Positions 17,302 to 58,904 of a DNA stretch of 64,000 bases are shown one piece after another. The first letter of the stretch is position 1; every line of letters begins with the position of its first letter. The position numbers were made by a program, and so were the translations under genes. The DNA is from Owenia fusiformis. Taxonomy: Eukaryota > Annelida > Polychaeta > Sabellida > Oweniidae. Location of the stretch: the NCBI GenBank assembly GCA_903813345.2, contig CAIIXF020000002.1, forward strand, positions 11,244,150 to 11,308,149, read 5' to 3'. The notes beneath the pieces were generated by a model that saw only the letters and a list, made by a program, of their open reading frames with translations, was not told the origin of the DNA and did not search any database.

Positions 17302-17518
17302 TGTATTCTTAGACGAGATTGTTTAAGAACGTAAGGTAGACATAAGTGTCACCTGTTAAAAGCTAGGAGATCTTTTCTAAGTTATTAAGTCATCAATCAG
17401 CAGACTGGTAATTGTATCCCCCACCCACTTCAAACTCCATACACTAACATACTATTACAATTTAAAATCAATTATATCTGTGTTTATTTGACTGTAGAAG
17501 GTGTACATTCATAGCACT

Positions 17519-28000: not shown

Positions 28001-31000
28001 TTATATCTAATTCGTCTTAAATCTATGATGCAGTTTGTGCTCTTGAGGAAATGTCAATTTTCGGACCAGTCGTAGGTAACGCTGGTCGCCGCATGACATT
28101 TGTTATTTAGAGAGATGTTTCAAGATACATTTTTAAATTTGCCCTACCAAGTACTTGTTGATTGGTCATTCTATTCGTGAGATATTGAGTATCTTATTTG
28201 TCATACAAGTCTGATTTACTTTGGGCTATATACGGAATGTCAATTTTCGGACCAGCTGTACATCGCACTAGTAGCAGCGACTAGTTTGATATATTGTGAG
28301 ACGTTCATGTATATATTTTTACGTTTGCCAAAGGAGGGATGTATCGATTGACTTCTCTGTTAGGGGGATATATAATATCCAATTCGTCTTAAATCGCTTA
28401 TGCAATTTGCGCTCTTGACGAAATGTCAATTTTCCGACCAGTCGTACGTCACACTGGTACATTCCAGTCCTTTGCAATTTTGTGAGACGTTTAAATATAT
28501 ATTTTGGAGTATGCTATTGAATGGATTTAATGAATGATGTTCCCGTTCGTGATATATTTTATATCTAATTCGTCTTAAATCTAAGATGCAGTTTGTGCTC
28601 TGGAGAAAATGTCAATTTTCGGACCAGTTGTACGTAACGCTGGTGGCAGCATGATATTTATTATTTAGTGAGATGTTTCAGCATACATTTTTACATTTGC
28701 CCTACCGAGGACTTATTGATTGGTCATTCTATTCGTGAGATATTGAGTATCTAATTTGTCATACAAGTCTGATTTACTTTGGGCTATGTACGGACTGTCA
28801 ATTTTCGGACCAGCTGTACATCGCACTGGTAGCAGTGACTAGTTAGATATATTGTGAGACGTTTATGTATATATTTTTACGTTTACCAAAGGAGGGATGT
28901 GTCGATTGACTTCTCTGTTAGGGGGATATATAATATCCTATTCGTCTTAAATCGCTTATGCAATTTGCGCTCTTTACGAAATGTCAAATTTCCGACCAGT
29001 CGTACGTCACACTGGTACATGCCAGTCCTTTGCAATTTTGTGAGACGTCTAAGTATATATTTTGGAGTATGCTCTTGAATGGATTTAATGAATGATGTTC
29101 CCGTTTGTGATATATTTTATATCTAATTCGTCTTAAATCTATGATGCAGTTTGTGCTCTGGAGGAAATGTCAATTTTCGGACCAGTCGTACGTAACGCTG
29201 GTGGTAGCATGATATTTGTTATTAAGTGAGATGTTTCAGGATTCATTTTTACACTTGCCCTACCAAGGACTTGTTGATTGGTCATTCTATTCGTGAGATA
29301 TTGAGTATCTAATTTGTCATACAAGTCTGATTTACTTTGGGATATGTACGGAATGTCAATTTTCGGACCATCTGTACATCGCACTGGTAGCAGTGACTAG
29401 TTTGATATATTGTGAGACGTTTATGTATATATTTTTACGATTGCCAAAGGAGGGATGTATCGATTGACGTCTCTGTTAGGGGGATATATAATATCCAATT
29501 CGTCTCAAATCGCTTATAATTATGCAATTTGCGCTCTTGACAAAATGTCAATTTTCCGACCAGTCGCACGTCACACTGGTACATGCCAGTCCTTTGCAAT
29601 TTTGTGAGACGTTTAAGTATATATTTTGGAGTATGCACTTGAATGGATTTAATGAATGATGTTCCCGTTCGTGATATATTTTATATCTAATTCGTCTTAA
29701 ATCTATGATGCAGTTTGTGCTCTGGAGGAAATTTCAATTTTCGGACCAGTCGTACGTAACGCTGGTGGCAGCATGATAATTGTTATTTAATGAGATGTTT
29801 CAGGATACATTTTTACATTTGCCCTACCGAGGACTTGTTGGTGGTCTTTCTATTCGTGAGATATTGAGTATCTAATTTGTCATACAAGTCTGATTTACTT
29901 TGGGCTATGTACGGACTGTCAATTTTCGGACCAGCTGTACATCGCACTGGTAGCAGTGACTAGTTAGATATATTGTGAGACGTTTATTTATATATTTCTA
30001 CGTTTGCCAAAGGAGGGATGTATCGATTGACTTCTCTGTTAGGGGGATATATAATATCCTATTCGTCTTAAATCGCTTATGCAATTTGCGCTCTTTACGA
30101 AATGTCAAATTTCCGACCAGTCGTACGTCACACTGGTACATGCCAGTCCTTTGCAATTTTGTGAGACGTTTAAGTATATATTTTGGAGTATGCTCTTGAA
30201 TTGATTTAATGAATGATGTTCCCGTTCGTGATATATTTTATATCTAATTCGTCTTAAATCTATGATGCAGTTTGTGCTCTGGAGGAAATGTCAATTTTCG
30301 GACCAGTCGTACGTAACGCTGGTGGTAGCATGATATTTGTTATTAAGTGAGATGTTTCAGAATTCATTTTTACACTTGCCCTACCGAGGACTTGTTGATT
30401 GGTCATTCTATTCGTGAGATATTGAGTATCTAATTTGTCATACAAGTCTGATTTACTTTGGGATATGTAAGGAATGTCAATTTTCGGACCAGCTGTACAT
30501 CGCACTGGTAGCAGTGACTAGTTTGATATATTGTGAGATGTTTATGTATATATTTTTACGATTGCCAAAGGAGGGATGTATCGATTGACGTCTCTGTTAG
30601 GGGGATATATAATATCCAATTCGTCTCAAATCGCTTATGCAATTTGCGCTCTTGTCAAAATGTCAATTTTCCGACCAATCGCACATCACACTGGTACATG
30701 CCAGTCCTTTGCAATTTTGTGAGACGTTTAAGTATATATTTTGGAGTATACTCTTGAATGGATTTAATGAATGATGTTCCCGTTCGTGATATATTTTATA
30801 TCTAATTCGTCTTAAATCTATGATGCAGTTTGTGCTTTGGAGGAAATGTCAATTTTCGGACCAGTCGTACGTAACGCTGGTGGCAGCATGATAATTGTTA
30901 TTTAATGAGATGTTTCAGGATACATTTTTACATTTGCCCTACCGAGGACTTGTTGGTGGTCTTTCTATTCGTGAGATATTGAGTATCTAATTTGTCATAC

Positions 31001-32063
31001 AAGTCTGATTTACTTTGGGCTATGTACGGACTGTCAATTTTCGGACCAGCTGTACATCGCACTGGTAGCAGTGACTAGTTTGATATATTGTGAGACGTTT
31101 ATTTATATATTTCTACGTTTGCCAAAGGAGGGATGTATCGATTGACTTCTCTGTTAGGGAGATATATAATATCCTATTCGTCTTAAATCGCTTATGCAAT
31201 TTGCGCTCTTGACGAATGATGTTCCTGTTCGTGATATATTTTATATCTAATTCGTCTTAAATCTATGATGCAGTTTGTGCTCAGGAGGAAATGTCAATTT
31301 TCGGACCAGTTGCTGGTAGCAGTGAATAGTTTGATATTTTTGAGACGTTTATGTATATTTTTTAAGATTACCATAGGATGGATGTGTTCATTGACTTTTA
31401 TCTTAGGGAGATATGTAATATCCAATTCGTCTTATGTGTTCATTGACTTTTCTGTTAGGGAGATATAGAATAACCAATTCGTCTTAAATCGCTAATGCAG
31501 TTTGCGCTATACACGAAATGTCAATTGTCAATTTTCCGACCAGTCGTACGTCACAATGCTACTAGCCAGTCCTTTGCTATTTTGTGAGACGTTTCAGTAT
31601 ATATTTTGCATGCTCTTGAATGGATTTAATGAATGATGTTCCCAATCGTGATATATTCTATATCTTATTCGTCTTAAATCTCTGATGCAGTTTGTGCTAT
31701 GTACGTAATATCAATTTTCGGACCAGCTGTACATCGCACTGGTAGCACCGACTAGTTTTATATTTTGTGAGACGTTTATGTATATATGTTTACGTTTGCC
31801 AAAGGAGGGATGTATCGATTGACTTCTCTGTTAGGGGGATATATAATATCCAATTCGTCATAAATCGCTTATGCAATTTTCGCTCTTCACATAATGTCAA
31901 TTTTCCGACCAGCCGTACGTCACACTGGTAAATGCCAGTCCTTTGCAATTTTGTGAGACGTTTAAGTATATATTTTCGAGTACGCTCTTGAATGGATTTA
32001 ATGAATGATGTTCCCGTTCGTGATATATTTTATATCTAATTTTTCTTAAATCTCCGATGCAGT
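25022..32063 (+). repeat. Satellite A array, block 2
   Basis: Resumes with the duplicated TTTG and continues in phase as M1-M2-M3 trimers. This block is a little more diverged than block 1, and an M3-to-M1 chimera near 27140-27147 removes most of one M3. The last 0.85 kb (31210-32063) is strongly decayed: truncated monomers, partial M1/M2 mixtures and internal deletions. It ends at CCGATGCAGTTTTA, where satellite B begins in mid-unit. Confidence 0.95.
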
Positions 32064-32921
32064 TTTAACCAGCTGCAGGACAAGCGAACATACTGACACT
32101 GAACCAGCAATCCTTTCGGGTTAAACCAAATTATGATTCATGAATATTGTCATTCATCTTATATCAGTTTTTAAATTTAAAAAAAGCATAGCACTGACCA
32201 GGAATTGAATCATAGCTATTTGCATGACAGGCGGGGATACAACTACTGAACCATCATTCCCTTCAGGTTAAGCTATATTTTAATTCATAAATATTGTAAT
32301 TCATCTTATGTCCGTTTTTGAATTTAAAAAAACATTGCACTTGCCAGGAATCGAATCATAGCCAGCTGCATGACAAGCGAGCACACAACCACTGAACCAT
32401 CAGTGCCTTCAGGTAAAATTAAATTATGATTCATGAATATTGTAATTCATCTCATATCAGTTTTGAAATTTAAAAAAAAACATTACACTTGCCAGGAATC
32501 GAATCATAGTCAGCTGCATGACAGGCGAGCATACTACCACTGAAGCACCAGTGCTTTCAGGTTAAACTCAATTATGATTCATGAATATTCTAATTCATCT
32601 TGTGGTAGCTCTTAAATTTAAAAAAACACATTGCACTGGCCAGGAATCGTATCATAGCCAGCTGCATGATAGGCGAACATACTTCCACTGAAGCAACAGT
32701 GCCTTCAGGTCAAACTAGATTATGATTCATGATTATTGTAATTCATCTTATGTCAGTTTTCAATTTAAAAAAACATTGCACTGGCAAGGAATCGGATCAT
32801 AGCCAGCTGCATGACAGGCGATCATACTACCACTGAACCACCAGTGCTTTCTCTTCAAACAAAATAATGATTCATGAATATTGAAATTCATCTTTTGACA
32901 GTTTTTGAATTTAAAAATATT

Positions 32922-32991
32922 GCACTGGCCAGGAATCGAATCATAGCCAGCTGCATGACTGGCGAGCATAGAATCACTGAACCACCAGTGC
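32922..32991 (-). ncRNA. tRNA-Gly-like unit of satellite B (GCACTGG type)
   Basis: Representative 70-bp unit with a fully complementary 7-bp acceptor stem (GCACTGG with CCAGTGC) and discriminator A at 32921, followed by an ATATTTTTAAA stretch. The anticodon loop here reads CAGTCAT, with A where invariant U33 should be. The D loop is altered (AGTGATTC). Best called a tRNA-derived pseudogene unit with Pol III promoter-like elements. Confidence 0.6.
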
Positions 32992-34075
32992 CTTCTGGCT
33001 AAACTAAAGTTTGATTCATGAATATTGTAATTCATCTCATGTCAGTTTTTAAATTTAAAAAACATTGCACTGTTCAGGAATCGAATCATAGCCAGCTGCA
33101 TGACAGGTGAGCATACTACCACTGAACCAGCAGTGCCTTCAGGTTAAACTAAATTATGATTCATGAATTTTTAATTCATCTTATGTCAGTTTTAAATTTT
33201 AAAAAAAACATTGCATTGTCCAGGAATCGAATCATAGCCAGCTACATGACAGGCCTACAATGAACCATCAATGCCTTCTGGTTAACACTAAATTATAATT
33301 CCTTAATATTGTAATTCATCTTATATCCGTTTTTGGATTAAAAAACATTGCACTGGCCAGGAATCGAATCATAAAGAGCTGCATGACAAGCGAGCATACT
33401 GACACTGAACCACAAATCCTTTCGGGTTAAACCAAAATATTATTCATCAATGTTGTAATTCATCTTATATCAGTTTTTAAATCGAAAAAACATAGTACTG
33501 CCCTGGAATCGAATCATAGCCAGCTGCATGACAGGCGAGCATAGAACCACTGAACCACAAGTGCCTTCAGGTAAAACTAAATTATGATTCATGAATATTC
33601 TAATTCATCTTATGTCAGTTTTTAAATTTGAAAAAAATTGCACTGGCCAGGAATAGAATCATAACCAGCTGCAGGACAAGCGAACATACTGACACTGAAC
33701 CACCAATCCTTTCGGGTTAAACCAAATTATGATTCATGAATATTGTCATTCATCTTATATCAGTTTTTAAATTTAAAAAAAGCATAGCACTGACCAGGAA
33801 ACGAATCATAGCTAGTTGCATGACAGGCGGGGATCCAACTACTGAACCACCATTCCCTTCAGGTTAAGCTATATTTTAATTCATAAATATTGTAATTAAT
33901 CTTATGTCAGTTTTAAATTTAAAAAAACATTGCTCTGGCCAGGAATCGAATCATAGCCAGCTGCATGACAGGTGAGCATACTACCACTGAACCAGCAGTG
34001 CATTTAGGTTAAACTAAATTATGATTCAATAATTTTTAATTCATCTTATGTCAGTTTTAAATTAAAAAAAACATT

Positions 34076-34145
34076 GCATTGTCCAGGAATCGAATCATAG
34101 CCAGCTGCATGACAGGCGCCGATACTACCAATGAACCATCAATGC
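34076..34145 (-). ncRNA. tRNA-Gly-like unit of satellite B (GCATTGA type)
   Basis: Representative of the second main subfamily. Its acceptor 5' strand is GCATTGA and its 3' strand ACAATGC, with six of seven positions paired. Relative to the GCACTGG type, C4 has become T and the partner G has become A, so pairing is kept. Minus strand continues AATGTTTTTTTT after the discriminator, a strong Pol III terminator-like run. Confidence 0.6.
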
Positions 34146-35804
34146 CTTCTGCTTAACACTAAATTATAATTCCTTAATATTGTAATTCATCTAATGTCCG
34201 TTTTTGGATTAAAAAAACATTGCACTGGCCAGGAATTGAATCATAACCAGCTGCATGACAAGCGAGCATACTGACACTGAACCACAAATCCTTTAGGGTT
34301 AAACCAAAATATTATTCATCAATGTTTTAATTCATCTTATATCAGTTTTTAAATTTTAAAAAAGCATAGCACTGGCCAGGAATCGAATCATAGCCAGCTG
34401 CATGACAGGCGAGCATACTACCCCTTTACCATGAGTGCCTTCCGGTTAAACTAAATTATGATTCAGGAATATTCTAATTCATCTTATGGTAGATCCTAAA
34501 TTTAAAAAAAAGACATTGCACTGGCCAGGAATCGAATCATAGCCAGCTGGATGACAGGAGCGAATTCTACCAATGAACCATCAGTGTCTTCTGATTCACA
34601 CTAAATTATGATTCCTGAATATTGTAATTCATCTTATGTCCTTTTTTGAATTAAAAAAAATACATTGCACTGGCCCGGAATCGAATCATAGCCAGCTGCA
34701 TGACAGGCCAGCACACTTCCACTGAACCATCAGTGTCTTCAGGTTAAATTAAATTATGATTCATGAACATTGTAATTCATCTCATATCAGTTTTAAAATT
34801 TAAAATAAACATTACACTGGCCAGGAATCGAATCATAGTCAGCTGCATGACAGGCGAGCATACTACCACTGAAGCACCAGTGCCTTCAGGTTAAACTCAA
34901 TTATGATTCATGAATATTGTAATTCATCTTGTGGTAGTTCTTGAATTAAAAAAAACACATTGCACTGACCAGGAATCGAATCATAGCCAGCTGCATGATA
35001 GACGAACATACTTGTTATATTGTAATTCATCTCATATCAGTTTTAAAATTTAAAAAAACAACATTACACTGGCCAGTAATCGAATCATAGTAAGCTGCAT
35101 GACAGAAGAGCATACTACCACTGAAGCACCAGTGCTTTCAGGTTAAATTAAATAATGATTCATGAATATTGAAATTCATCTTTTGACAGTTTTTAAATTT
35201 AAAAAATATTGCACTGGCCAGTAATCAAATCATAGCCAGCTGCATGACAGTTGGGCATACTACCATTGAAGCACCAGTGCCTTCAGGTTAAACTCAATTA
35301 TGATTCATGAATATTGTTATTCATCTTGTGGTAGTTCTTAAATTTAAAAAAAACACATTGCACTGACCAGGAATCGAATCATAGCCATCTGCATGACAGG
35401 TGAGAATACTACCACTGAACCACCAATGCTTTCGGGTTAAACTAAATTATGATTCATGAATATTGTCATTCATCTTATATATTCAGTTTTTAAATTTAAA
35501 AAAAGCATAGCACTGACCAGGAATCGAATCATAGCTAGTTGCATGACAGGTGGGGATACAGCTACTGAACCACCATTCCCTTTAGGTTAAACTATATTTT
35601 AATTCATAAATATTGTAATTAATCTCATGTCAGTTTTAAATTTTTAAAAAAACATTGCTCTGGCCAGGAATCGAATCATAGCCAGCTGCATGACAGGCGC
35701 GCAATCTACCGATTAACTATCAGTGCCTTCTGGATAACACTAAATTATGATTCCTGAATATTGTAATTCATCTTATGTCCGTTTTTGAATTTAAAAAAAA
35801 CATT

Positions 35805-35874
35805 GCACTTGCCAGGAATCGAATCATAGCCAGCTGCATGACAAGCGAGCACACTACCACTGAACCATCAGTGC
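35805..35874 (-). ncRNA. tRNA-Gly-like unit of satellite B with CTTGTCAT anticodon region
   Basis: 70-bp unit with anticodon triplet GTC in the standard position and a GCTTGTCATGC stem-loop. Acceptor strands are GCACTGA and CAAGTGC, so only the outer five positions pair. This shows acceptor pairing is not kept in every unit. A T run (AATGTTTTTTTT) follows. Confidence 0.55.
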
Positions 35875-37883
35875 CTTCAGGTTAAATTAAATTATGATTC
35901 ATGAATATTGTAATTCATCTCATATCAGTTTTAAAATTTTAAAAAAACATTACCCTGGCCAGGAATCGAATCATAGTCAGCTGCATGACAGGCGAGCATA
36001 CTACCACTGAAGCAACAGTGCCTTCAGGTCAAACTAAATTATGATTCATGAATATTGTAATTCATCTTATGTCAGTTTTCAATTTAAAAAAACATTTTAC
36101 TGGCAAGGAATCGAATCATAGCCAGCTGCATGACAGGCGATCATACTACCACTGAACCACCAGTGCCTTTAGGTCAAACTAAATAATGATTCATGAATAT
36201 TGAAATTCATCTTTTGACAGTTTTTGAATTTAAAAAATATTGCACTGGCCAGGAATCGAATCATAGCCAGCTGCATGACTGGCGAGCATAGAATCACTGA
36301 ACCACCAGTGCCTTCTGGCTAAACTAAAGTTTGATTCATGAATATTGTAATTCAATTATGATTCATGATTATTCTAATTCATCTTGTGGTAGTTCTTAAA
36401 TTTAAAAAACACATTGCACTGGCCAGGAATCGAATCATAGCAAGCTGCATGATAGGCGAACATACTTCCACTGAAGCAACAGTGCCTTCAGGTCAAACTA
36501 AATTATGATTCATGAATATTGTAATTCATCTTATGTCAGTTTTCAATTTAAAAAAACATTGTACTGGCAAGGAATCGAATCATAGCCAGCTGCATAACAG
36601 GCGATCATACTACCACTGAACCACCAGTGCCTTCAGGTCAAACTAAATAATGATTCATGAATATTGAAATTCATCTTTTGACAGTTTTTGAATTTAAAAA
36701 ATATTGCACTGGCCAGGAATCGAATCATAGCCAGCTGCATGACTGGCGAGCATAGAATCACTGAACCACCAGTGCCTTCTGGCTAAACTAAAGTTTGATT
36801 CATGAATATTGTAATTCATCTTATGTCAGATTTTAAATTTAAAAAAGATATTGCACTGTTCAGGAATCGAATCATAGCCAGCTGCATGACAGGTGAGCAT
36901 ACTACCACTGAACCAGCAGTGCTTCCAGGTTAAACTAAATTATGATTCATGAATTTTTAATTCATCTTATGTCAGTTTTAAATTTAAAAAAACATTGCAT
37001 TGTCCAGGAATCGAATCATAGCCAGCTGCATGACAGGCGCACATACTACCAATGGACCATCAATGCCTTCTGGTTAACACTAAATTATAATTCCTTAATA
37101 TTGTAATTCATCTAATGTCCGTTTTTGGATTAAAAAACATTGCACTGGCCAGGAATCGAATCATAACCAGCTGCATGACAAGCGAGCGTACTGACACTAA
37201 ACCACAAATCCTTTCGGGTTAAACCAAAATATTATTCATCAATGTTGTAATTCATCTTATATCAGTTTTTAAATTTTAAAAAAAAAGCATAGCACTGGCC
37301 AGGAATCGAATCATAGCCAGCTGCATGATAGGCGAGCATACTACCCCTTAACCATCAGTGCCTTCCGGTTAAACTAAATTATGATTCAGGAATATTCTAA
37401 TTCATCTTATGGTAGATCTTAAATTTTAAAAAAAGACATTGCATAGCCAGGAATCGAATCATAGCCAGCTGGATGACAGGAGTGCATTCTACCGATGAAC
37501 CACCAGTGTCTTCTGATTAACACTAAATTATGATTCCTGAATATTGTAATTAATCTAATGTCCGTTTTTGGATTAAAAAAAACATTGCACTGGCCAGGAA
37601 TCGAATCATAGCCAGCTGCATGACAGGCGCACATACTACCAATGAAGCATCAATGCCTTCTGGTTAACACTAAATTATTTTCCTGAATATTGTAATTCAT
37701 CTTATGTCCTTTTTTTAATTAAAAAAACAATGCACTGGCCAGGAATCGAATCATAGCCAGCTGCATGATAGGCGAACATACTTCAACTGAAGCAACAGTG
37801 CCTTCAGGTCAAACTAAATTATGATTCATGAATATTGTAATTCATCTAATGTCACTTTTCAATTTTAAAAAAAACATTGCACT

Positions 37884-38441
37884 CATTCTGATTTATCAGA
37901 GTCCCTCTTTACCTAACGCTTTTGAGAGACTCTGATATATCATGAGGCAGAACATGTTCCTAGCCAGTGCATTCTCCAAGTAAATCAGTGTATATGGAGG
38001 AATAAATTAGTGCCTAAGAATGCACCGTTCTGTTTTCCCCTTTGTAAACTTTAATTCAATGAATTCATTATGTGGAAAACTTTTATTTATCTTGATGGTT
38101 CTTGTTTTTATATTGAAAATTAATAACTATGATAATGTTGACATACTTCTTTTTTCTTATTATTTTCAAATTTAGAAATTTAAACAAGAATTATCATGCA
38201 AATGTCAACACTTGGATTATTTGGGAGGGAATTGTGTTTGGTCACATTCATTAGGCTTTGTCTGATTATTTAATCATGCAACTGCAGGTAATGCCTTCCC
38301 ATGATACTCATGGTCAATAGAACTCTGTAAATAATTTGATTGGTCCGTACATTTTAGAGTTAAAGGAAACATTTATTACAGTCAGTATCCCACAGTCTGA
38401 ACTATTCCAAAAGGATAGTAAAGGCTGTGGATCCCACAATG
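37884..38441. mobile_element. 558-bp insertion in satellite B with 8- to 9-bp target duplication
   Basis: The satellite word CATTGCACT lies on both sides (37875-37883 and 38442-38450). Removing the insert with one copy restores ACATTGCACTGG. Ends are CATTCTG and CACAATG, a short imperfect inverted repeat (CATTCTG/CATTGTG). The left part carries a hairpin, ATCAGAGTC..CTC with GAGAGACTCTGAT (37899-37937). No open frame of note. A duplication of 8 or 9 bp suggests a hAT-like or Mutator-like non-autonomous element. Confidence 0.75.
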
Positions 38442-39487
38442 CATTGCACTGGCAATGAATCGAATCATAGCCAGCTGCATGACAGGCGATCATACTACCA
38501 CTGAACCACCAGTGCCTTCAGATCAAACTAAATAATGATTCATGAATATTGAAATTCATCTTTTGACAGTTTTTGAATTTAAAAAGTATTGCACTGGCCA
38601 GGAATCGAATCGTAGCCAGCTGCATGACAGGCGAGCATAGAATTACTGAGCCACCAGTGCCTTCTGGCTAAACTAAAGTTTGATTAATGAATATTGTAAT
38701 TCATCTTATGTCAGTTTTTAAATTTAAAAAACATTGCACTGTTCAGGAATCGAATCATAGCCAGCTGCATGACAGGTGAGCATACTACCACTGAACCAGC
38801 AGTGCCTTCAGGTTAAACTAAATTATGATTCATGAATTTTTAATTCATCTTATGTCAGTTTTAAATTTAAAAAAACATTGCATTGTCCAGGAATCGAATC
38901 ATAGCCAGCTGCATGACAGGCCCACATACTACCAATGAACCATCAATGCCTTCTGGTTAACACTAAATTATAATTCCTTAATATTGTAATTCATCTAATA
39001 TCCGTTTTTGGATTAAAAAACATTGCACTGGCCAGGAATCAAATCATAGCCAGCTGCATGACAGGCCAGCACACTTCCACTGAACCATCAGTGCCTTCAG
39101 GTTAAATTAAATTATGATTCATGAATATTGTAATTCATCTCATATCAGTTTTAAATTTAAAAAAAAAACATTACACTGGCCAGGAATCGAATCATAGTCA
39201 GCTGCATGACAGGCGAGCATACTACCACTGAAGCAACAGTGCCTTCAGGTCAAACTAGATTATGATTCATGAATATTGTAATTCATCTTATGTCAGTTTT
39301 TAAATTTAAAAAACATTGCACTGTTCAGGAATCGAATCATAGCCAGCTGCGTGACAGGTAAGCATACTACCACTGAACCAGCAGTGGCTTCAGTTTAAAG
39401 TAAATTATGACTCATGAATTTTTAATTCATCTTATTTCAGTTTTAAATTTAAAAAAACATTGCATTGTCCAGGAATCGAATCATAGC

Positions 39488-41820
39488 CAGCTGCATGATA
39501 GGCGAACATACTTCCACTGAAGCAACAGTGCCTTCAGGTCAAACTAAATTATGATTCATGAATATTGTAATTCATCTTATGTCAGTTTTCAATTTTAAAA
39601 AAAACATTGTACTGGCAAGGAATCGAATCATAGCCAGCTGCATGACAGGCGATCATACTACCACTGAACCACCAGTGCCTTCAGGTCAAACTAAATAATG
39701 ATTCATGAATATTGAAATTCATCTTTTGACAGTTTTTGAATTTAAAAAATATTGCACTGGCCAGGAATCGAATCATAGCCAGCTGCATGACTGGCGAGCA
39801 TAGAATCACTGAACCACCAGTGCCTTCTGGCTAAACTAAAGTTTGATTCATGAATATTGTAATTCATCTTATGTCAGATTTTAAATTAAAAAAATATTGC
39901 ACTGTTCAGGAATCGAATCATAGCCAGCTGCATGACAGGTGAGCATACTACCACTGAACCAGCAGTGCTTCCAGGTTAAACTAAATTATGATTCATGAAT
40001 TTTTAATTCATCTTATGTCAGTTTTAAATTTAAAAAAACATTGCATTGTCCAGGAATCGAATCATAGCCAGCTGCATGACAGGCGCACATACTACCAATG
40101 GACCATCAATGCCTTCTGGTTAACACTAAATTATAATTCCTTAATATTGTAATTCATCTAATGTCCGTTTTTGGATTAAAAAACATTGCACTGGCCAGGA
40201 ATCGAATCATAACCAGCTGCATGACAAGCGAGCGTACTGACACTAAACCACAAATCCTTTCGTGTTAAACCAAAATATTATTCATCAATGTTGTAATTCA
40301 TCTTATATCAGTTTTTAAATTTTAAAAAAGCATAGCACTGGCCAGGAATCGAATCATAGCCAGCTGCATGATAGGCGAGCATACTACCCCTTAACCATCA
40401 GTGCCTTCCGGTTAAACTAAATTATGATTCAGGAATATTCTAATTCATCTTATGGTAGATCTTAAATTTAAAAAAAAGACATTGCATGGCCAGGAATCGA
40501 ATCATAGCCAGCTGGATGACAGGAGCGCATTCTACCGATGAACCACCAGTGTCTTCTGATTAACACTAAATTATGATTCCTGAATATTGTAATTAATCTA
40601 ATGTCCGTTTTTGGATTAAAAAAAACATTGCACTGGCCAGGAATCGAATCATAGCCAGCTGCATGACAGGCGCACATACTACCAATGAAGCATCAATGCC
40701 TTCTGGTTAACACTAAATTATTTTCCTGAATATTGTAATTCATCTTATGTCCTTTTTTAATTAAAAAAAACAATGCACTGGCCAGGAATCGAATCATAGC
40801 CAGCTGCATGATAGGCGAACATACTTCCACTGAAGCAACAGTGCCTTCAGGTCAAACTAAATAATTATGATTCATGAATATTGAAATTCATCTTTTGACA
40901 GTTTTTGAATTTAAAAAATATTGCACTGGCCAGGAATCGAATCATAGCCAGCTGCATGACAGGCGAGCATAGAATTACTGAGCCACCAGTGCCTTCTGGC
41001 TAAACTAAAGTTTGATTAATGAATATTGTAATTCATCTTATGTCAGTTTTTAAATTTAAAAAACATTGCACTGTTCAGGAATCGAATCATAGCCAGCTGC
41101 ATGACAGGTGAGCATACTACCACTGAACCAGCAGTGCCTTCAGGTTAAACTAAATTATGATTCATGAATTTTTAATTCATCTTATGTCAGTTTTAAATTT
41201 AAAAAAACATTGCATTGTCCAGGAATCGAATCATAGCCAGCTGCATGACAGGCCCACATACTACCAATGAACCATCAATGTCTTCTGGTTAACACTAAAT
41301 TATAATTCCTTAATATTGTAATTCATCTAATATCCGTTTTTGGATTAAAAAACATTGCACTGGCCAGGAATCGAATCATAGCCAGCTGCATGACAGGCCA
41401 GCACACTTCCACTGAACCATCAGTGCCTTCAGGTTAAACTAAATTATGATTCATGAATATTGTAATTCATCTCATATCAGTTTTAAATTTTAAAAAAACA
41501 TTACACTGGCCAGGAATCGAATCATAGTCAGCTGCATGACAGGCGAGCATACTACCACTGAAGCAACAGTGCCTTCAGGTCAAACTAAATTATGATTCAT
41601 GAATATTGTAATTCATCTTATGTCAGTTTTTAAATTTAAAAAACATTGCACTGTTCAGGAATCGAATCATAGCCAGCTGCGTGACAGGTAAGCATACTAC
41701 CACTGAACCAGCAGTGGCTTCAGTTTAAAGTAAATTTTGATTCATGAATTTTTAATTCATCTTATTTCAGTTTTAGATTTAAAAAAACATTGCATTGTCC
41801 AGGAATCGAATCATAGCCAG
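39488..41820. repeat. Segmental tandem duplicate of 36440-39487 within satellite B
   Basis: Unit-by-unit variants repeat at an offset of about 3045 up to 37820/40863, and at about 2330-2335 for 38520-39490 against 40865-41820. The offset change equals the 558-bp insertion plus one satellite unit. The second copy therefore lacks both the transposon and the single unit that carries it. Confidence 0.75.
39754..39823 (-). ncRNA. tRNA-Gly-like unit of satellite B (GCACTGG type, later copy)
   Basis: 70-bp unit nearly the same as 32922-32991, 6.8 kb away. It has a perfect 7-bp acceptor stem and the same altered D loop and CAGTCAT loop, illustrating that subfamilies are interspersed through the array. 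It is followed by AATATTTTTTAAA on the minus strand. Confidence 0.55.
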
Positions 41821-44800
41821 CTGCATGACAGGCCCACATACTACCAATGAACCATCAATGCCTTCTGCCTGACACTAGATTATAATTCCTTAATATTGTA
41901 ATTCATCTAATGGCCGTTTTGGGATTAAAAAAACATTGCATTGGCCAGGAATCGAATCATAACCAGCTGCATGACAAGCGAGCATACTGACACTGAACCA
42001 CAAATCCTTTCTGGTTAAACTAAAATATTATTCATCGATGTTATAATTCATCTTATATCAGTTTTTTAAATTTAGAAAAAAGCATAGCACTGGCCAGGAA
42101 TCGAATCATAGCCAGCTGCATGACAGACCAGCACACTTCCACTGAACCATCAGTGCCTTCAGGTTAAATTAAATTATGATTCATGAATATTGTAATTCAT
42201 CTCATATCAGTTTTGAAATTTAAAAAAAACATTACACTGGCCAGGAAACGAATCATAGCCAGCTGCATGACAGGCGAGCATACTACCACTTAAGCACCAG
42301 CGCCTTCAGGTTAAACTCAATTATGATTCATGAATATTGTAATTCATCTTGTGGTAGTTCTTAAATTTAAAAACACATTGCACTGACCAGGAATCGAATC
42401 ATAGCCAGCTGCATGATAGACGAACATACTTGTTATATTGTAATTTATCTCATATCAGTTTTGAAATTTAAAAAAAACATTACACTGGCCAGTAATCGAA
42501 TCATAGCCAGCTGCATGACAGGCGAGCATACTAACCCTTAACCATCAGAGCCTTCTGGTTAAACTAAATTATGATTCAGGAATATTCTAATTCATCTTAT
42601 GGTAGATCTTAAATTTAAAAAAAAGACATTGCACTGGCCAGGAATCGAATCATAGCCAGCTGGATGACAGGTGCGCATTCCACCGATGAACCACCAGTGC
42701 CTTCAGGTTAAATTAAATTATGATTCCTGAACATTGTAATTCATCTTATGTCCGTTTTTGAATTTAAAAAAGACATTGCACTGGCCAGGAATCGAATCAT
42801 AGCCAGCTGCATGACAGGCCAGCACACTTCCAGTGAACCATCAGTGCCTTCAGGTTAAATTAAATTATGATTCATGAATATTGTAATTCATCTCATATCA
42901 GTTTTGAAATTTAAAAAAAACATTACACTGGCCAGGAATCGAATCATAGTCAGCTGCATGACAAGCGAGCATACTACCACTCAAGCACCAGTGCTTTCAG
43001 GTTAAACTCAATTATGATTCATAAATATTCTAATTCATCTTGTGGTAGTTCTTAAATTTAAAAAAAAAACATTGCACTGGCCAGGAATCGAATCATAGCC
43101 AGCTGCATGATAGGCGAACATACTTCCACTGAAGCAACGGTGCCTTCAGGTCAAACTAAATTATGATTCATGATTATTGTAATTCATCTTATGTCAGTTT
43201 TCAATTTTAAAAAAAACATTGCACTGGCAAGGAATCGAATCATAGCCAGCTGCATGACAGGCGATCATACTACCACTGAACCACCAGTGCCTTCATGTCA
43301 AACTAAATAATGATTCATGAATATTGAAATTCATCTTTTGACAGTTTTTGAATTTAAAAAATATTGCACTGGCCAGGAATCGAATCATAGCCAGCTGCAT
43401 GACTGGCGAGCATAGAATCACTGAGCCACCAGTGCCTTCTGGCTAAACTAAAGTTTGATTCATGAATATTGTAATTCATCTTATGTCAGTTTTTAAATTT
43501 AAAAAACATTGCACTGTTCAGGAATCGAATCATAGCCAGCTACATGACAGGTAAGCATACTACCACTGAACCAGCAGTGCCTTCAGGTTAAACTAAATTA
43601 TGATTCATGAATTCTTAATTCATCTTATGTCAGTTTTAAATTTAAAAAAACATTGCATTGTCCAGGAATCGAATCATAGCCAGCTGCATGACAGGCGCAC
43701 ATACTACCAATGAACCATCAATGCCTTCTGGTTAACACTAAATTATAATTCCTTAACATTCATCTAATGTCCGTTTTTGGATTAAAAAAACATTGCACTG
43801 GCCAGGAATCGAATCATAAACAGCTGCATGACAAGCGAGCATACTGACACTGAACCACAAATCCTTTCGGGTTAAACCAAAATATTATTCATCAATGTTG
43901 TAATTCATCTTATATCAGTTTTTAAATCGAAAAAACATAGTACTGCCCTGGAATCGAATCATAGCCAGCTGCATGACAGGCGAGCATAGAACCACTGAAC
44001 CATAAGTGCCTTCAGGTAAAACTAAATTATGATTCATGAATATTCTAATTCATCTTATGTCAGTTTTTAAATTTAAAAAAAATTGCACTGGCCAGGAATC
44101 GAATCATAACCAGCTGCAGGACAAGCGAGCATACTGACAATGAACCACCAATCCTTTCAAGTTAAACCAAATTATGATTCATGAATATTGTCATTCATCT
44201 TATATCAGTTTTTAAATTTAAAAAAGCATAGCACTGACCAGGAATCGAATCATAGCTAGTTGCATGACAGGCGGGGATACAACTACTGAACCACCATTCC
44301 CTCCAGGTTAAGCTATATTTTAATTCATAAATATTGTAATTAATCTTATGTCAGTTTTAAATTTAAAAAAACATTGCTCTGGCCAGGAATCGAATCATAG
44401 CCAGTAGCATGACAGGCGTGCATTCTACCGATGAACTGTGCCTTCTGGTTAACACTAAATTATGATTCCTGAATATTGTAATTCATCTTATGTCCGTTTT
44501 TGAATTTAAAAAAACATTGCACTTGCCAGGAATCGAATCATAGCCAGCTGCATGACAAGCGAGCACACTACCACTGAACCATCAGTGCCTTCAGGTTAAA
44601 TTAAATTATGATTCATGAATATTGTAATTCATCTCATATCAGTTTTGAAATTTAAAAAAACATTACACTGGCCAGGAGTCGAATCATAGTCAGCTGCATG
44701 ACAGGCGAGCATACTACCACTAAAGCACCAGTGCTTTCAGGTTAAACTAAATTATGATTCATGATTATTATAATTCATCTTATGTCAGTTTTCAATTTTA

Positions 44801-45148
44801 AAAAAAACATTGCACTGGCAAGGAATCGAATCATAGCCAGCTGCATGACAGGCGATCATACTACCACTGAACCACCAGTGCCTTCATGTCAAACTAAATA
44901 ATGATTCATGAATATTGAAATTCATCTTTTGACAGTTTTTGAATTTAAAAAATATTGCACTGGCCAGGAATCGAATCATAGCCAGCTGCATGACTGGCGA
45001 GCATAGAATCACTGAACCACCAGTGCCTTCTGGCTAAACTAAAGTTTGATTCATGAATATTGTAATTCATCTTATGTCAGCTTTTTAATTTAAAAAAAAT
45101 ATTGGACTGTTCAGGAATCGAATCATAGTCAGCTGCATGACAGACAGG

Positions 45149-45940
45149 TATGTAGTTTCTCTGGCCTCTCAAAAGGTGACAGGCTTTACTGAATAATACC
45201 ATCCCTGGGAAGTCTAAATCGATTGATGGAACTCATTTCATATTGTTTTATTCAAGTACATCAAGTAATCTTTTGTAATATTGGATAAATATCTGATCAA
45301 ATAACTCAATCGCCCAGTTTCTGGTGACAATACACAATGTATCTAAATTACTCTGATGGATGATTGTCCCACACATGATTTGCAAATCGTTCAGTGAGTG
45401 TTGGAAATTCAACCAATGGATGGCAATGGCAGTGATAACAGGCAAACATCACAATTCTAGGTTAATTTCGGTTTAATCCAAAATTAAACAATAGCATTTG
45501 GAATAAAAAAATAACATAGCATGCCCCTCTCTTTGGATTTGGAAACCAGAGTTTCTAAATTACCATGTTCAAGTAATACAACACATTGGAAAGAAGCAGA
45601 TATATTCAAAAAACATGAAAACACGAGGACTACTTTCCAAGTAGTGTTTTTTAAAATCTGTACAATCACCATCATGCAGAATTTAAGAGTTGTTAAGACA
45701 CCATCATTCTTCGAAATAAAAACCAGTGATATCTCCAAAATATGCGTCCTCTGCTTGTGAATTTAGGTTCATTTGAGAGACTAACATAGTATGCACAAGT
45801 GGGGTGGGATTTGAAGCATTTAACAAAGTATAAATATGAAAATTATTCGTTTTTCTTGCTAAATCGAGAAAATCTTACGCCTTGTTCAGACACCATCAGT
45901 TGCGAAGGACACGTGATGACTATCCATACCGTGTACTAAC
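45149..45940. other. Non-satellite island between satellites B and A
   Basis: Starts in the middle of a satellite B unit after CTGCATGACAG, and ends where satellite A resumes in mid-M2 at GGTCCTTTGCAATTTTG. It contains a 65-codon minus-strand frame (45248-45445) whose stop is overlapped by AATAAA, and overlapping frames of 84 and 79 codons on opposite strands (45484-45760). None matches a family I know, and no terminal inverted repeat or target duplication is evident. It could be a decayed gene fragment or a retroelement piece. Confidence 0.5.
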
Positions 45941-48900
45941 AGGTCCTTTGCAATTTTGTGAGACGTTTGAATATATATATTGTAGTACGCAATTGAATGA
46001 ATTTAATGAATGATGGCCGCGTTCATGATATATTTTATATCTAATTCGTCTTAAATCTCTGATGCAGTTTGTGCTCTGGACGGAATGTCAATTTTAGACC
46101 AGTCGCACGTCACACTGCGACTAGCCAGTCTTTTGCAATTTTGTGAGACGTTTGAGTATATATTTTGGAGTATGTTCCTGAATGGATTTAATGAATGATG
46201 TTCCCGTTCGTGATATATATTATATCTAATTCGTCTTAAATCTCTGATGCAGTTTGTGTTCTGGCATGGACGAAATGTCAATTTTCGGACCAGTCGTACG
46301 ATGCGCTGGTAGCAGCATGATATTTGCTAACTATTGAGATGTTTAAGGATGCATTTTTACATTTGCCCTACCGTGGACTTGTTGATTGGTCATTCTATTC
46401 GTGAGATATTGAGTATATTATTTGTCATAAAAGTCTGATTTACCTTAGGCTATGTACGGAATGTCAATTTTCGGACCAGCTGTACATCGCACTGGTAGCA
46501 GCGACTAGTTTTATATATTTTTACATTTGCCATGGGATGGATGTGTCGATTGACTTTTCCGTTAGGGAGATATTTAATATCCAATTCGCCTTAAATCGCT
46601 TATGCAGTTTGCGCTATAGACGAGATGTCAATTTCCCGACCAGTCGTACGTCACACTGCTACTAGCCAGCCCTTTGCAATTTTTTGAGACATTTGAATTA
46701 ATATTTTGAAGTATGCTCTCGACTGGATTTAATGAATGATGTTCCCGTTCGTGATATATTTTATATCTAATTTGTCTTAAATCCCTGATGCAGTTTGTGC
46801 TCTGGACGAAATGTCAATTTTCGAACCAGACGTACGTAGCGCTGGTAGCAGCATGATATTTACTAATTATTGAGATGTTTCAGGATACATTTTTACATTT
46901 GCCCTACCGAGGACTTGTTGATTGATCATTCTATTCGTGAGATATTGAGTATCTAATTTGTCATACAAGTCTGATTTACGTAGGGCTATGTAGGGAATGT
47001 CAATTTTCGGACCAGCTGTACATCGCACTGGGAGCAGTGACAAGTTTGATACATTGTGAGCCGTTTATGTATATATTTTTACGTTTGCCAAATGAGGGAT
47101 GTATCGATTGACTTCTCTGTTAGGGGGATATATAATATCCAATTCGTCTTAAATCGCTTATGCAATTTGCGCTCTTGACGAAATGTCAATTTTCCGACCA
47201 GTCGTATGTCACACTGGTACATGCCAGTCCTTTGCAATTTTGTGAGACGTTTAAGTTTATATTTTTGCGTATGCTCTTGAATGGATTTAATGAATGATGT
47301 TCCCGTTCGTGATATATTTTATACCTAATTCGTCTTAAATCTATGATGCAGTTTGTGCTCTGGATAAAATGTCAATTTCGGACCAGTCGTAAGTATTGCT
47401 GGTGGCAGCATGATATTTGTTATTTAGTGAGATATTTCAGGATACATTGTTACATTTGCCTTACCGAGGACTTGTTGATTGGTCATTCTATTCGTGAGAT
47501 ATTGAGTATCTAATTTGTCATACAAGTCTGATTTACTTTGGGCTATGTACGGAATTTCAATTTTCGGACCAGCTGTACATCGCACTGGAAGCAGGGACTA
47601 GTTTGATATATTGTGAGACGTTTATGTATATATTTTTACGTTTGCCAAAGGAGGGATGTATCTATTGACTTCTCTATTAGGGGGATATATAATATCCAAT
47701 TCGTCTTAAATCGCTTATGCAATTTGCGCTCTTCACAAAATGTCAATTTTCCGACCAGTCGTACGTCATACTGGTACATGCCAGTCCTTTGCAATTTTGT
47801 GAGACGTTTAAGTATATATTTTGGAGTATGCTCTTAAATGAATTTAATGAACGATGTTCCCGTTCGTGATATATTTTATATCTAATTCGTCTTAAATCTA
47901 TAATGCAGTTTGTGCTCTGGAGGAAATGTCAATTTTGGACCAGTCGTACGTAACGCTGGTGGCAGCATGATATTTGTTATTTAGTGAGATGTTTCAGGAT
48001 ACATTTTTACATTTGCCCTACCGAGGACTTGTTGATTGGTCATTCTATTCGTGAGATATTGAGTATCTAATTTGTCATACAAATCTGATTTACTTTGGGC
48101 TATGTGCGGAATGTCAATTTTCGGACCTGCTGTACATCGCACTGGTAGCAGCGACTGGTTTCATATATTGTGAGACGTTTATGTATATATTTTTACATTT
48201 GCCAAAGGAGGGGTGTATCTATTGACTTCTCTGTTAGGGAAATATATAATATCCAATTCGTCTTAAATCGCATATGCAATATGCGCTCTTGACGAAATGT
48301 CAATTTTCCGACCAGCCGTACGTCACACTGGTACATGCCAGTCCTTTGCAATTTTGTGAGACGTTTAAGTATATATTTTGGAGTATGCTCCTGAATGGAT
48401 TGAATGAATGATGTTCTCGTTCGTGATATATTTTATATCTAATTCGTCTTAAATCTATGATGCAGTTTGTGCTCTGGAGGAAATGTCAATTTTCGGACAA
48501 GTCGTACGTAACGCTGGTGGCAGCATGATACTTGTTATTTGGTGAGATGTTTCAGGATACATTTTAACATATGCCCTAACAAGGACTTGTTGATTGGTCA
48601 TTCTATTCGTGAGATATTGAGTATCTAATTTGTCATACTAGTCTGATTTACTTTGGGCTATGTACGAAATGTCAATTTTCGGATCAGCTGTACATCGCAT
48701 TGGTAGCAGCGACTAGTTTGATATATTGTGAGACGTTTATGTATATATTTTTACATTTGTCAAAGGAGGGATGTGTCTATTGACTTCTCTGTTAGGGGGA
48801 TATATAATATCCATTTCGTCTTAAATCGCTTATGCAATTTGCACTCTTGACGAAATGTCAATTTTCCGACCAGTCGTACGTCACACTGGTACATGCCAGT

Positions 48901-51900
48901 CCTTTGCAATTTTGTGAGACGTTTAAGTATATATTTGGAGTATGCTCTTAAATGGATTTAATGAATGCTGTTCCCGTTCGTGATATATTTTATGTCTAAT
49001 TCGTCTTAAATCTATGATGCAGTTTGTGCTCTAGATAAAATGTCAATTTTCGGACCAGTCGTATGTATTGCTGGTGGCAGCATGATATTTTTTATTTAGT
49101 GAGATGTTTCAGGATACATTGTTACATATGCCTTACCGAGGACTTGTTGATTGGTCATTCTATTCGTGAGATATTGAGTATCTAATTTGTCATACAAGTC
49201 TGATTTATTTTGGGCTATGTACGTGATGTCAATTTTCGGACCAGCTGTACATCGCAGCACTGGTAGCAGCGACTAGTTTGATATATTGTGAGACGTTTAT
49301 GTATATATTTTTACGTTTGCCAAAGGAGGGATGTATCGATTGACTTCTCTATTAGGGGGATATATAATATCCAATTCGTCTAAATCGCTTATGCAATTTG
49401 CGCTCTTGACAAAATGTCAATTTTCCGACCAGACGTACGTCTTACTGGTACGTGCCAGTCCTTTGCAATTTTGTGAGACGTTTAAGTATATATTTTGGAG
49501 TATGCTCTGGAATGGATTTAATGAATGATGTTCCTGTTCGTGATATATTTTATATCTAATTCGTCTTAAATCTATGATGCAGTTTGTGCTCTGGAGGAAA
49601 TGTCAATTTTCGGACCAGTCGTACGTAACGCTGGTGGCAGCATGATATTTGTTATTTAGTGAGATGTTTTAGGATACATTTTTACATTTGCCCTACTGAG
49701 GACTTGTTGATTGGTCATTCTATTCGTGAGATATTGAGTATCTAATTTGTCATACAAGTCGGATTTACTTTGGGCTATATGCGGAATGTCAATTTTCGGA
49801 CCAGCTGTACATTGCACTAGTAGCAGCGACTAGTTTGATATATTGTGAGACGTTTATGTATATATTTATACGTTTGCCAAAGGAGGGATCTATCGATTGA
49901 CTTCTCTGTTAGGGGGATATATAATATCCAATTCGTCTTAAATCGCTTATGCAATTTGCGCTCTTGATGAAATGTGAATTTTCCGACCAGTCGTACGTCA
50001 CACTGGTACATGTCAGTCTTTTGCAATTTTGTGAGACGTTTAAGTATATATTTGGAGTATGCTCTTGAATGGATTTAATGAATGATGTTCCCGTTCGTGA
50101 TATATTTTATATCTTATTCGTCTTAAATCTATGATGCAGTTTGTGCTCAGGAAGAAATGTCAATTTTCGGACCAGTCGTACGTAACGCTGGTGGCAGCAT
50201 GATATTTGTTATTCAATGAGATGTTTCAGGAGACATTTTTACATTTGCCCTACCGCGGACTTGTTGATTGGTCATTCTATCCGTGAGATATTGAGTATCT
50301 AATTTGTCATAAAAGTCTGATTTACTTTGGTCTATGTACGGAATGTCAATTTTCGGACCAGCTGTACATCGCACTGGTAGCAGCGACTAGTTTGATATAT
50401 TGTGAGACGTTTATGTATATATTTTTACGTTTGCCAACGGAGGAATGCATCGATTAACTTCTCTGTTAGGGGGATATATAATATCCAATTCGTCTTAAAT
50501 CGCTTGTGCAATTTGCGCTCTTGACGAAATGTCAATTTTCCGACCAGTCGTACGTCAAACTGGTACATGCCAGTCCTTTGCAATTTTGTGAGACGTTTAA
50601 GTATATATTTTGGAGTATGCTATTGAATGGATTTAATGAATGATGTTCCCGTTCGTGATATATTTTATATCTAATTCGGCTTAAATCTATGATGCTGTTT
50701 GTGCTCTGGAGGAAATGTCAATTTTCGGACCAGTCGTACGTAACGCTGGTGGCAGCATGATATTTGTTATTTAGTGAGATGTTTCAGGATACATTTTAAC
50801 ATTTGCCCTACCGAGGACTTGTTGATTGGTCATTCTATTCGTGAGATATTGAGTATCTAATTTGTCATACAAGTCTGATTTACTTTGGGCTATGTACGGA
50901 ATGTTAATTTTCGTACCAGCTGTACATCGCACTTGTAGCAGCGACTACTTTGATATTTTGTGAGAAGTTTATGCATATATTTTTACGTTTGCCAAAGGAG
51001 GGATGTATCGATTGACTTCTCTGTTAGGGGGATATATAACATCCAATTCGTCTTAAATTGCTTATGCAATTTGCGCTCTTGACGAAATGTCAATTTTCCG
51101 ACCAGTCGTACGTCACACTGGTACATGCCAGTCCTTTGCAATTTTGTGAGACGTTTAAGTATATATTTTGGAGTATCCTCTTGAATGTTTTTAATGAATG
51201 ATGTTCCCGTTCGTGATATATTTTATACCTAATTCGTCTTAAATCTAGGATGCAGTTTGTGCTCTGGAGGAAATGTCAATTTTCGGACCTGTCGTACGTA
51301 ACGCTGGTGGCAGCATGATATTTGTTATTTAGTGAGATGTTTCAGGATAAATTTTACATTTGCCCTACCGAGGACTTGTTGATTGGTCATTCTATTCGTA
51401 AGATATTGAGTATCTAATTTGTCATACAAGTCTGATTTACTTTGGGCTATGTACGGAATGTCAATTTTCGGACCAGCTGTACATCGCACTGGTAGCAGCG
51501 ACTAGTTTGATAAATTGTGAGACGTTTATGTATATATTTTTACGTTTGCCAAAGGAGGGATGTATCGATTGACTTCCCTGTTAGGGGGATATATAATATC
51601 CAATTCGTCTTCGCTTATGCAATTTGCGCTCTTGACGAAATGTCAAATTTCCGACCAGTCGTACGTCACACTGGTACATGCCAGTCCTTTGCAATTTTGT
51701 GAGACGTTTAAGTATATATTTTGAAGTATGCTATTGAATGGATTTAATGAATGATGTTCCCGTTCGTGATATATTTTATATCTAATTCGTCTTAAATCTA
51801 TGATGCAGTTTGTGCTCTGGAGGAAATGTCAATTTTCGGACCAGTCGTACGTAACGCTGGTGGCAGCATGATATTTGTTATTTAGTGAGATGTTTCAGGA

Positions 51901-57900: not shown

Positions 57901-58221
57901 GTCGTCATTGACGTTTCTGTTAGGGAGATATATATTATCCAATTCGTCTTAAATCGCTAATGCAATTTGCGCTCTTGACGAAATGTCAATTTTCCGACCA
58001 GTCGTACGTCACACTGCTACTAGCCAGTCTTTTGCAATTTTGTGAGAGATTTAAATATATATTTTAGAGTATGCTCTTGAATGAATTAATGAATGATGTT
58101 CCCGTTCGTGATATATTTTATATCTTGTTCGTTTTAAATCTCCGGTGCAGTTTGTGCTCTGAACGAAAGGTCAATTTTCCGACCAGTCGTACGTAGCGCT
58201 GGAAGCAGCATGATATTTGCT
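45941..58221 (+). repeat. Satellite A array, block 3
   Basis: Same M1-M2-M3 trimeric satellite and same orientation as blocks 1 and 2. The central part (about 47000-55300) is homogeneous with a strict 558-bp period. The outer parts (45941-46900 and 55350-58221) are strongly diverged, with truncated and rearranged monomers. A patch at about 49960-50500 carries block-1 diagnostic variants. It ends by running into minisatellite C within the M3 word ATGATATTTGCT. Confidence 0.95.
54237..54794 (+). repeat. Reference higher-order unit of satellite A (558 bp = 3 x 186)
   Basis: A clean trimer: M1 54237-54422, M2 54423-54608, M3 54609-54794, each exactly 186 bp by line counting. The neighbouring units give the same 558-bp spacing (starts at 53121, 53679, 54237 and 54795). 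Because 186 and 558 are multiples of three, chance open frames recur in phase from unit to unit. No CENP-B-box-like motif was seen. Confidence 0.9.
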
Positions 58222-58904
58222 TTAACAACCGGTTATCTTGGTATAACAATTGTTGCTTTAGAACCGGTTGTCTTGGTATAACAATTGTTGCTTTAAGAAC
58301 CGGTTGTCCTGGTATAACAATTGTTGCTTTAGGAACCGGTTGCCTTGGTATAACAATTGTTGCTTTAGTAACCGGTTGCTTTGGTATAACAATTGTTGCT
58401 TTAGGAACTGGTTGCCTTGGAATAACAATTGTTGCTTTAGGAACCAGTTGCCTTGGTTTAACAATTGTTGCTTTAATAACCGGTTGTCCTGGTATAACAA
58501 TTGTTGCTTTAGGAACCGGTTGTCCTGGTATAACAATTGTTGCTTTAGGAACCGGTTGCCTTGGTATAACAATTGTTGCTTTAGGAACCGGTTCCCTTGG
58601 TATAACAATTGTTGCTTTAGAAACCGATTGCCTTGGTATAATAATTGTTGCTTTAGGAACTGGTTGCCTTGGTATAACAATTGTTGCTTTAAGAATCGCT
58701 TGTCCTGGTATAACAATCGTTGCTTTAGGAACCGGTTGTCTTGGTATAACAATTGTTGCTTTAAGAACCGGTTATCCTGGTATAACAATTGTTGCTATAG
58801 GAACCGGTTGCCTTGGTATAACAATTGTTGCTTTAGGAACTGGTTGCCGTGGTATAACAATTGTTGCTTTAGGAATCGGTTGTCTTGGTATTACAATTGA
58901 TGCT
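58216..58904. repeat. Minisatellite C (36-bp unit, about 19 copies)
   Basis: The unit is 36 bp: GTATAACAATTGTTGCTTTA followed by GGAACCGGTTGCCTTG. Each unit holds two perfect palindromes, AACAATTGTT and AACCGGTT. As 36 is a multiple of three, both strands stay open: plus 58268-58900 repeats a 12-residue word like WYNNCCFRNRLP, and minus 58258-58788 repeats QLLYQGNRFLKQ. Substitutions among copies hit all codon positions as far as I can see, so protein coding is not supported. It directly abuts satellite A. Confidence 0.93.

Follow-up and report, generated by a model that had tools for sequence, protein, structure and literature searches.

To our knowledge, the origin of most satellite DNAs can no longer be traced. 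Here, we ask where one satellite of the annelid Owenia fusiformis came from, and whether the RNA polymerase III (Pol III) promoter signals that it carries still matter. The satellite lies in a stretch of 64,000 nucleotides of contig CAIIXF020000002.1 (C2:11244150-11308149, in the following the window), in an assembly of 498 Mb and 525 contigs. A first-pass annotation made from the letters of the window had described an array of about 85 tRNA-Gly-derived units of 145 bp on the minus strand, each with Pol III-like signals, and had regarded it as unexpected that these signals were kept while the tRNA stems decayed. We come to the view that the array is probably a satellite whose unit is a whole tRNA-Gly(GCC) gene together with its spacer, and that it is most likely passive, the Pol III signals being for the most part inherited relics.

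The array and its tRNA-like units

The features that carry the argument are the following.

32060..45151, minus strand: tRNA-Gly-derived satellite array, family A (nhmmer and Tandem Repeats Finder, TRF)
43220..43290, minus strand: tRNA-like segment with the joint best score, 34.7 bits to RF00005 (cmscan)
44811-44881, minus strand: tRNA-like segment, joint best with 43220-43290 (RF00005, cmscan)
32777..32847, minus strand: tRNA-like segment, the third above the Rfam tRNA gathering score, 30.5 bits (cmscan)

Along the array nhmmer found 87 matches to a 71-nt tRNA-Gly-like segment, spaced by about 145 bp, and TRF reported a period of 145 in four pieces of 20.2, 19.3, 27.4 and 18.6 copies. Number, length and strand of the units had thus been described correctly. 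The covariance-model comparison that the first-pass annotation had proposed also bears out the tRNA likeness. In the whole window the Rfam tRNA model has three matches above gathering score; all of them lie in the array, on the minus strand, and run over the full length (positions 1-71), and the likeness is therefore not due to chance. Further full-length matches below the threshold are found within the same array. ARAGORN called no tRNA gene anywhere in the window.

The family A consensus shows the A box intact, departs from the B box by a single base (G51A) and has acceptor strands that match each other in 7/7 pairs, all as first described. Its anticodon is GTC, and the anticodon and T stems are broken. 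While the description of the two boxes holds for the consensus, it does not hold unit by unit: the strict A box (TGGTTCAGTGG) is present in only 24 of the 78 distinct window units, a loose A-box consensus in 44 of them, and the B-box consensus GWTCRANNC in none of the 78, so that no unit unites A box, B box and T run in their consensus form. The T run near the 3' end proved to be general, since all 83 window units measured have at least four T within 19 nt of it. The intact cloverleaf and the GCC anticodon of a functional tRNA-Gly are missing from the family A units of the window. What these units do form are long, non-coding head-to-tail arrays at several places, as is typical of satellite DNA. 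Within the window array there is a weak higher-order pattern, units 16 apart being 88.3% identical compared with an average of 84.0%.

Two related families on C2 and C11

A genome search with the family A unit gave at least 478 matches. Among the matches listed, family A lies on C2 at 11.23, 11.276-11.289 (the window array) and 14.03-14.10 Mb; it is also found at C11:8.27-8.29 Mb. An intermediate query revealed a sister family, B, with at least 575 matches. Those listed lie on C11 at 9.92-9.97, 10.07-10.08, 11.86, 12.90-12.92, 12.99-13.00, 13.39, 13.51-13.52 and 15.28-15.29 Mb, and on C2 at 9.98-10.00 Mb. The family A unit, the B-type query and an exact motif (168 matches) all point to C2 and C11 only, among the matches listed.

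One block duplication is directly visible. The block upstream of the window (L025, C2:11.2325-11.2401) nearly duplicates the one inside it, with 49 of 50 units at 95-100% identity and one at 86%, and the order of the units is broadly kept with some exceptions. For the comparisons below, units were read from the window and 14 loci. In family A, 328 matches yielded 303 units (spacing 120-175 bp), 281 of them distinct, and in family B 315 matches yielded 301 units, 247 of them distinct. A 70% identity filter removed no row in either family, and five matches inside family B loci that scored best with the A query were left where they were.

The probable founder: a tandem array of tRNA-Gly genes

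Tandem arrays of intact tRNA-Gly-GCC genes, with roughly the period of the satellite, are still present in this genome. The array at C7:34.704-34.707 Mb has 15 units of 133-147 bp and 11 ARAGORN genes among 18 matches; the array at C2:29.323-29.328 Mb has units of 149-153 bp (16 of 19) and 18 ARAGORN genes among 22 matches. Looser copies lie on C6 and single genes elsewhere. Compared with this own tRNA-Gly-GCC of the genome, the consensus sequences of A and B each differ at 11 of 71 sites. Eight of the 11 differences are common to both families (sites 34, 37, 40, 42, 43, 48, 49 and 61), and six of these eight fall in CpG dinucleotides of the tRNA-Gly gene. The eight common changes point to one decayed founder. 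Nine of the 11 founder changes of family A cluster within 18 nt (P 0.00065). The 22 box sites took one of the 11 changes in A (P 0.08) and none of the 11 in B (P 0.011), two tests that are not independent because eight changes are shared. Most of the stem-breaking changes belong to these eight and are therefore not the product of independent decay in each unit. The argument that promoter signals were kept while the stems decayed cannot stand in its original form, and the leftover signals look mostly inherited, not preserved.

The spacer allows a more specific answer. Aligned to the spacer of the C7 array, the spacers of A, B and a further array at C11:11.86 Mb (L005) have z scores of 5.7, 5.9 and 6.4, and in each case none of 500 shuffles reaches the score. 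With the promoter-near ends trimmed, the z scores are 4.5, 2.7 and 3.5, reached by 0, 2 and 0 of 500 shuffles. In a profile search of 25,317 bases from 17 loci with the tRNA parts masked, C7 was the best match, nearly over the full length, with E values of 0.015 (A) and 0.00023 (B), while the best value elsewhere was 2.7. The array at C2:29.3 Mb was considered as the source of A and rejected (spacer z 0.3, 203 of 500 shuffles); against the B spacer it has a z of 1.6 (36 of 500 shuffles). Searched against the genome, the C7 spacer had 21 matches, each of them on C7, in a run that scored a single candidate and hence does not establish absence elsewhere. The tRNA part (60 of 71 sites as in the genome's tRNA-Gly) and the spacer (by its likeness to that of C7) are both homologous to an intact tRNA gene array. 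The tRNA-Gly origin first proposed is thereby upheld and sharpened to a tandem gene array including its spacer.

Given the homology between the spacers of the satellite and of C7, the founding unit would have been a gene plus spacer and not a short interspersed nuclear element (SINE). It is very unlikely that the satellite arose from a tRNA-headed SINE by tandem duplication, as in squamate reptiles. SINE-derived satellites do exist (PMC10702118), and a dispersed tRNA-like family is present in the same genome. However, in the 10 loci read this family has another head and other flanks, no homology of the satellite to a dispersed SINE beyond the tRNA head was found, and we rejected a SINE origin. 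Moreover, to the left and to the right of the tRNA part the satellite spacer matches that of the C7 gene array, the listed matches of the satellite all lie on C2 and C11, and no solo copies of the unit with a common tail are among them. The dispersed repeat itself (L010-L019) lies on many contigs, has another tRNA-like part and similar flanks, and may be a SINE or some other element that bears a tRNA.

A tree of 122 units (a random 45 each of A and B, eight of the 19 from C2:29.3 Mb, and all from C7 and L005) places all 45 A units in one clade with a support of 0.96 and groups B with L005 (54 units, 0.74). A, B, L005 and C7 come together (114 units, 0.85), apart from the C2:29.3 Mb array. By its sequence, L005 looks intermediate between the gene arrays and the satellite: the GCC anticodon is retained by two of its units, six of eight distinct units have an intact B box, and ARAGORN still calls eight tRNAs with mixed anticodons among 12 matches. 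The C7 array, on a chromosome-sized contig other than that of the window, is likely to be a relative of the founding gene array. It also holds (L002 470-3177) shortened pseudogene units at 1493, 2354 and 3177, with a spacing of 133 bp and a deletion within the anticodon arm, so that decay and amplification seem to be ongoing there too.

From these arrays the following course can be proposed. The start would be a tandem array of tRNA-Gly genes like the one that survives on C7, where the period is close to 147 bp. One copy would have taken about eight changes in the anticodon, the anticodon stem, the variable region and the T stem, largely at CpG sites. This altered copy would then have been amplified, presumably by unequal exchange and block duplication, and the amplified satellite would have split into families A and B, which may have spread over the satellite-rich parts of C2 and C11. 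The A box, the B-box relic and the T run would be an inheritance from the gene, and most units would by now drift. The data show the arrays and their homology, the changes common to both families, a single block duplication and the rates of change; it is the route of amplification and the lack of function that we infer here, and weak Pol III or TFIIIC activity of the units is possible and not needed.

Are the promoter relics under constraint?

If the relics mattered, they might be expected to change more slowly than the spacer, and the first-pass annotation had proposed this comparison. Rates were taken as parsimony changes per site on trees of the 281 distinct A and 247 distinct B units and set against GC/AT-matched spacer draws, which treat neighbouring sites and repeat units as independent although they are not. 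Relative to the spacer, the rates in A and B are 0.98 and 0.90 for the tRNA part as a whole, 1.06 and 0.92 for the A box, 1.19 and 1.21 for the acceptor stem, 1.61 and 0.77 for sites 19-30, 0.50 and 0.69 for the anticodon loop, and 0.72 and 1.14 for sites 38-49. The comparison has a divided outcome, in that the A box equals the spacer, the B box is slower in A and not clearly so in B (0.68, P 0.06), and the T run is slower in both families at marginal significance. Over the whole family A unit, the coldest 11-nt window fails to reach significance (P 0.098), and in A the anticodon loop, which plays no part in the promoter, changes as slowly as the B box. On rates, sliding windows and permutations, with the A box not slower and the B box slower in A only, we rejected promoter constraint as the main account.

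Several observations weigh against passive descent from an array of the C7 kind. The homology of the C7 spacer is moderate, with a best E value of only 0.015 for the A profile, and the C7 and C2:29.3 Mb spacers are themselves weakly alike (z 3.3, 1 of 500 shuffles). In the tree, A, B and L005 without C7 have a support of just 0.39, and the C7 units are not monophyletic, the largest clade holding five of 15. The B box of A changes at half the spacer rate (0.51, P 0.0003 in site draws; P 0.0026 in a single-window permutation), and the T run at 0.59 in A (P 0.057) and 0.62 in B (P 0.062). When the two consensus sequences are compared, A and B disagree at 6 of 71 sites in the tRNA part and at 14 of 72 aligned sites in the spacer; set against within-family changes of 1164 (tRNA part) and 996 (spacer) in a McDonald-Kreitman-like contrast, this gives P 0.04. 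The contrast hints at an older constraint, and we take it as a hint only because events in related repeats are not independent. Finally, the acceptor pair 7-64 is G-C in the consensus of A and A-T in that of B, with GC in three, GT in three and AT in two units of L005.

The slow B box of A, the T run at about 0.6 and the greater likeness of the tRNA part between the families would all fit an array that serves as a bank of TFIIIC-binding sites (extra-TFIIIC), bounding or organising satellite heterochromatin, with B box and T run weakly selected. There is a precedent in C. elegans, where both boxes are present in extra-TFIIIC sites, a large share of which are putative repeats of tRNA pseudogenes (PMC6950938). 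We nevertheless think this reading unlikely. The B-box consensus is matched by 1 of 281 distinct A units and 94 of 247 B units in addition to none in the window. The forms of the B box in the 247 B units are GGGTCGATTCC (89), GGTTCAATTCC (61), GGTTCCATTCC (28) and the form of the gene (23); GGGTCGATTCC and GGTTCCATTCC break the consensus, while GGTTCAATTCC still fits. The spacer-like rate of the A box, the insignificant cold window and the equally slow anticodon loop of A speak against it as well. Likewise doubtful is a second, older role, in which relics of B box and terminator would have been selected as TFIIIC-linked chromatin elements in the C2 and C11 satellite blocks after the loss of coding. 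If it were true, the tRNA part would have diverged less than the spacer between A and B, and single units would now be freer to drift.

As a further candidate function, Pol III might transcribe the units, in a certain tissue or at a certain stage, giving tRNA-like RNAs or fragments; on the sequence evidence this is quite unlikely. The combination of an A box, a B box with G or A at site 51 and at least four T is kept by 23 of the 83 units in the window and by 128 of 303 in family A, compared with 22 of 34 units of the intact gene arrays. A precedent is offered by Arabidopsis, whose root tips express the silent SYY tRNA cluster, one that meets heterochromatin (PMC12308677). Against this stands the state of the stems. 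In the consensus of A, 1/4 pairs of the D stem, 2/5 of the anticodon stem and 3/5 of the T stem are broken, and individual acceptor pairs form in 57-95% of the 281 A units. Acceptor cells are paired in 1650 of 1967 cases in A (shuffle mean 1636, with 2 of 300 shuffles reaching the observed number). In B, the paired cells number 1553 of 1729 (shuffle mean 1548, with 39 of 300 reaching the observed number). Pairs maintained by a change on both sides account for 19 of 1967 cells in A, no more than in shuffles (35 of 300 reach this number), and 11 of 1729 in B, slightly more than in shuffles (10 of 300). T-A at pair 4-67 of A is found in 10 units, eight in the window and two in the near copy upstream. 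Because related units inflate such pairing counts, we see no clear constraint on the acceptor stem. A passive satellite with inherited relics thus remains our preferred explanation.

Insertion, flanks and neighbouring repeats

The array is interrupted once and is bordered by another satellite.

37884..38441, no strand assigned: 558-bp insertion dividing the family A array (read sequence)
45152..45930, no strand assigned: non-satellite DNA of about 780 bp that separates the array from the following 186-bp satellite (read sequence)
25034..31976, plus strand: 186-bp satellite, left flank, reported by TRF in two rows and, by eye, running on to about 32064 (TRF, read sequence)
46512..58221, plus strand: 186-bp satellite, right flank; by eye it starts from about 45930 (TRF, read sequence)

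The insertion is flanked by a 9-bp direct repeat of unit sequence (CATTGCACT) at 37875-37883 and 38442-38450. Its longest stop-free stretch has 54 codons, and its terminal 8 bases agree at 6/8 when inverted; we take it, as a guess, to be a Mutator-like non-autonomous element. No second copy was found among the loci read. The first 429 bases of the non-satellite DNA behind the array are also found behind the upstream block, identical at 429/429 up to the end of the sequence read there.

The 186-bp satellite is also found at 20-9847 and 10390-11866 of the window (TRF). It surrounds the window array and, with the relative orientation unchanged, borders the family B array in L024 and the block upstream, L025; among the matches listed it lies on C2, C11 and C12. 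The window further holds a 36-bp minisatellite of about 19 copies (58217-58905) and a CATTG-type pentamer array of about 1.2 kb (17506-18676).

Relation to known systems and significance

Satellites derived from Pol III-transcribed gene arrays have been described before. The 5S rDNA-derived satellites of Hoplias, Physalaemus and the Plantago B chromosome (reference list of PMC12692304) are, like the window array, gene arrays of this kind turned satellite. However, the founder is here a tRNA-Gly array, and founder-like and intermediate arrays survive in the same genome. OAX/satellite I of Xenopus and Hy/polIII of Hydromantes share with the window array a tandem arrangement and a tRNA- or Pol III-related part; the OAX unit is described as a long one with its tRNA-derived part in the centre, and for Hy/polIII a tRNA origin has been doubted (PMC10702118). 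In contrast to both, the unit described here consists of a single gene and a short spacer and can be followed back to a gene array. The SINE-derived satellites of squamates likewise contain part of a tRNA head with box B (PMC10702118), while the Owenia unit has the whole tRNA length and gene-like flanks, and no SINE body or tail was found in it. A SINE derived from tRNA-Gln is on record for Schistosoma (PMC2770079). The tRNA-derived satellite DNAs of Harttia fishes also have tRNA-derived parts, but are described as complex units mixed with parts of SINEs and long interspersed nuclear elements (PMC11955569). Head-to-tail tRNA genes make up the Arabidopsis SYY cluster (PMC12308677), which is partly heterochromatic, and the human 7.3-kb tRNA repeat (PMC4041453); unlike these, the window units are no longer intact tRNA genes. 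Among the papers listed by our searches of the open PubMed Central literature, none describes this repeat, and none follows a satellite back to an array of tRNA genes in the same genome.

The genome of Owenia fusiformis holds intact gene arrays, one array of intermediate state and two families of satellite that have a list of changes in common, and the path from a working tRNA gene cluster to a satellite can therefore be put in order. The same system offers a natural test of whether relics of Pol III promoters matter within satellite blocks.

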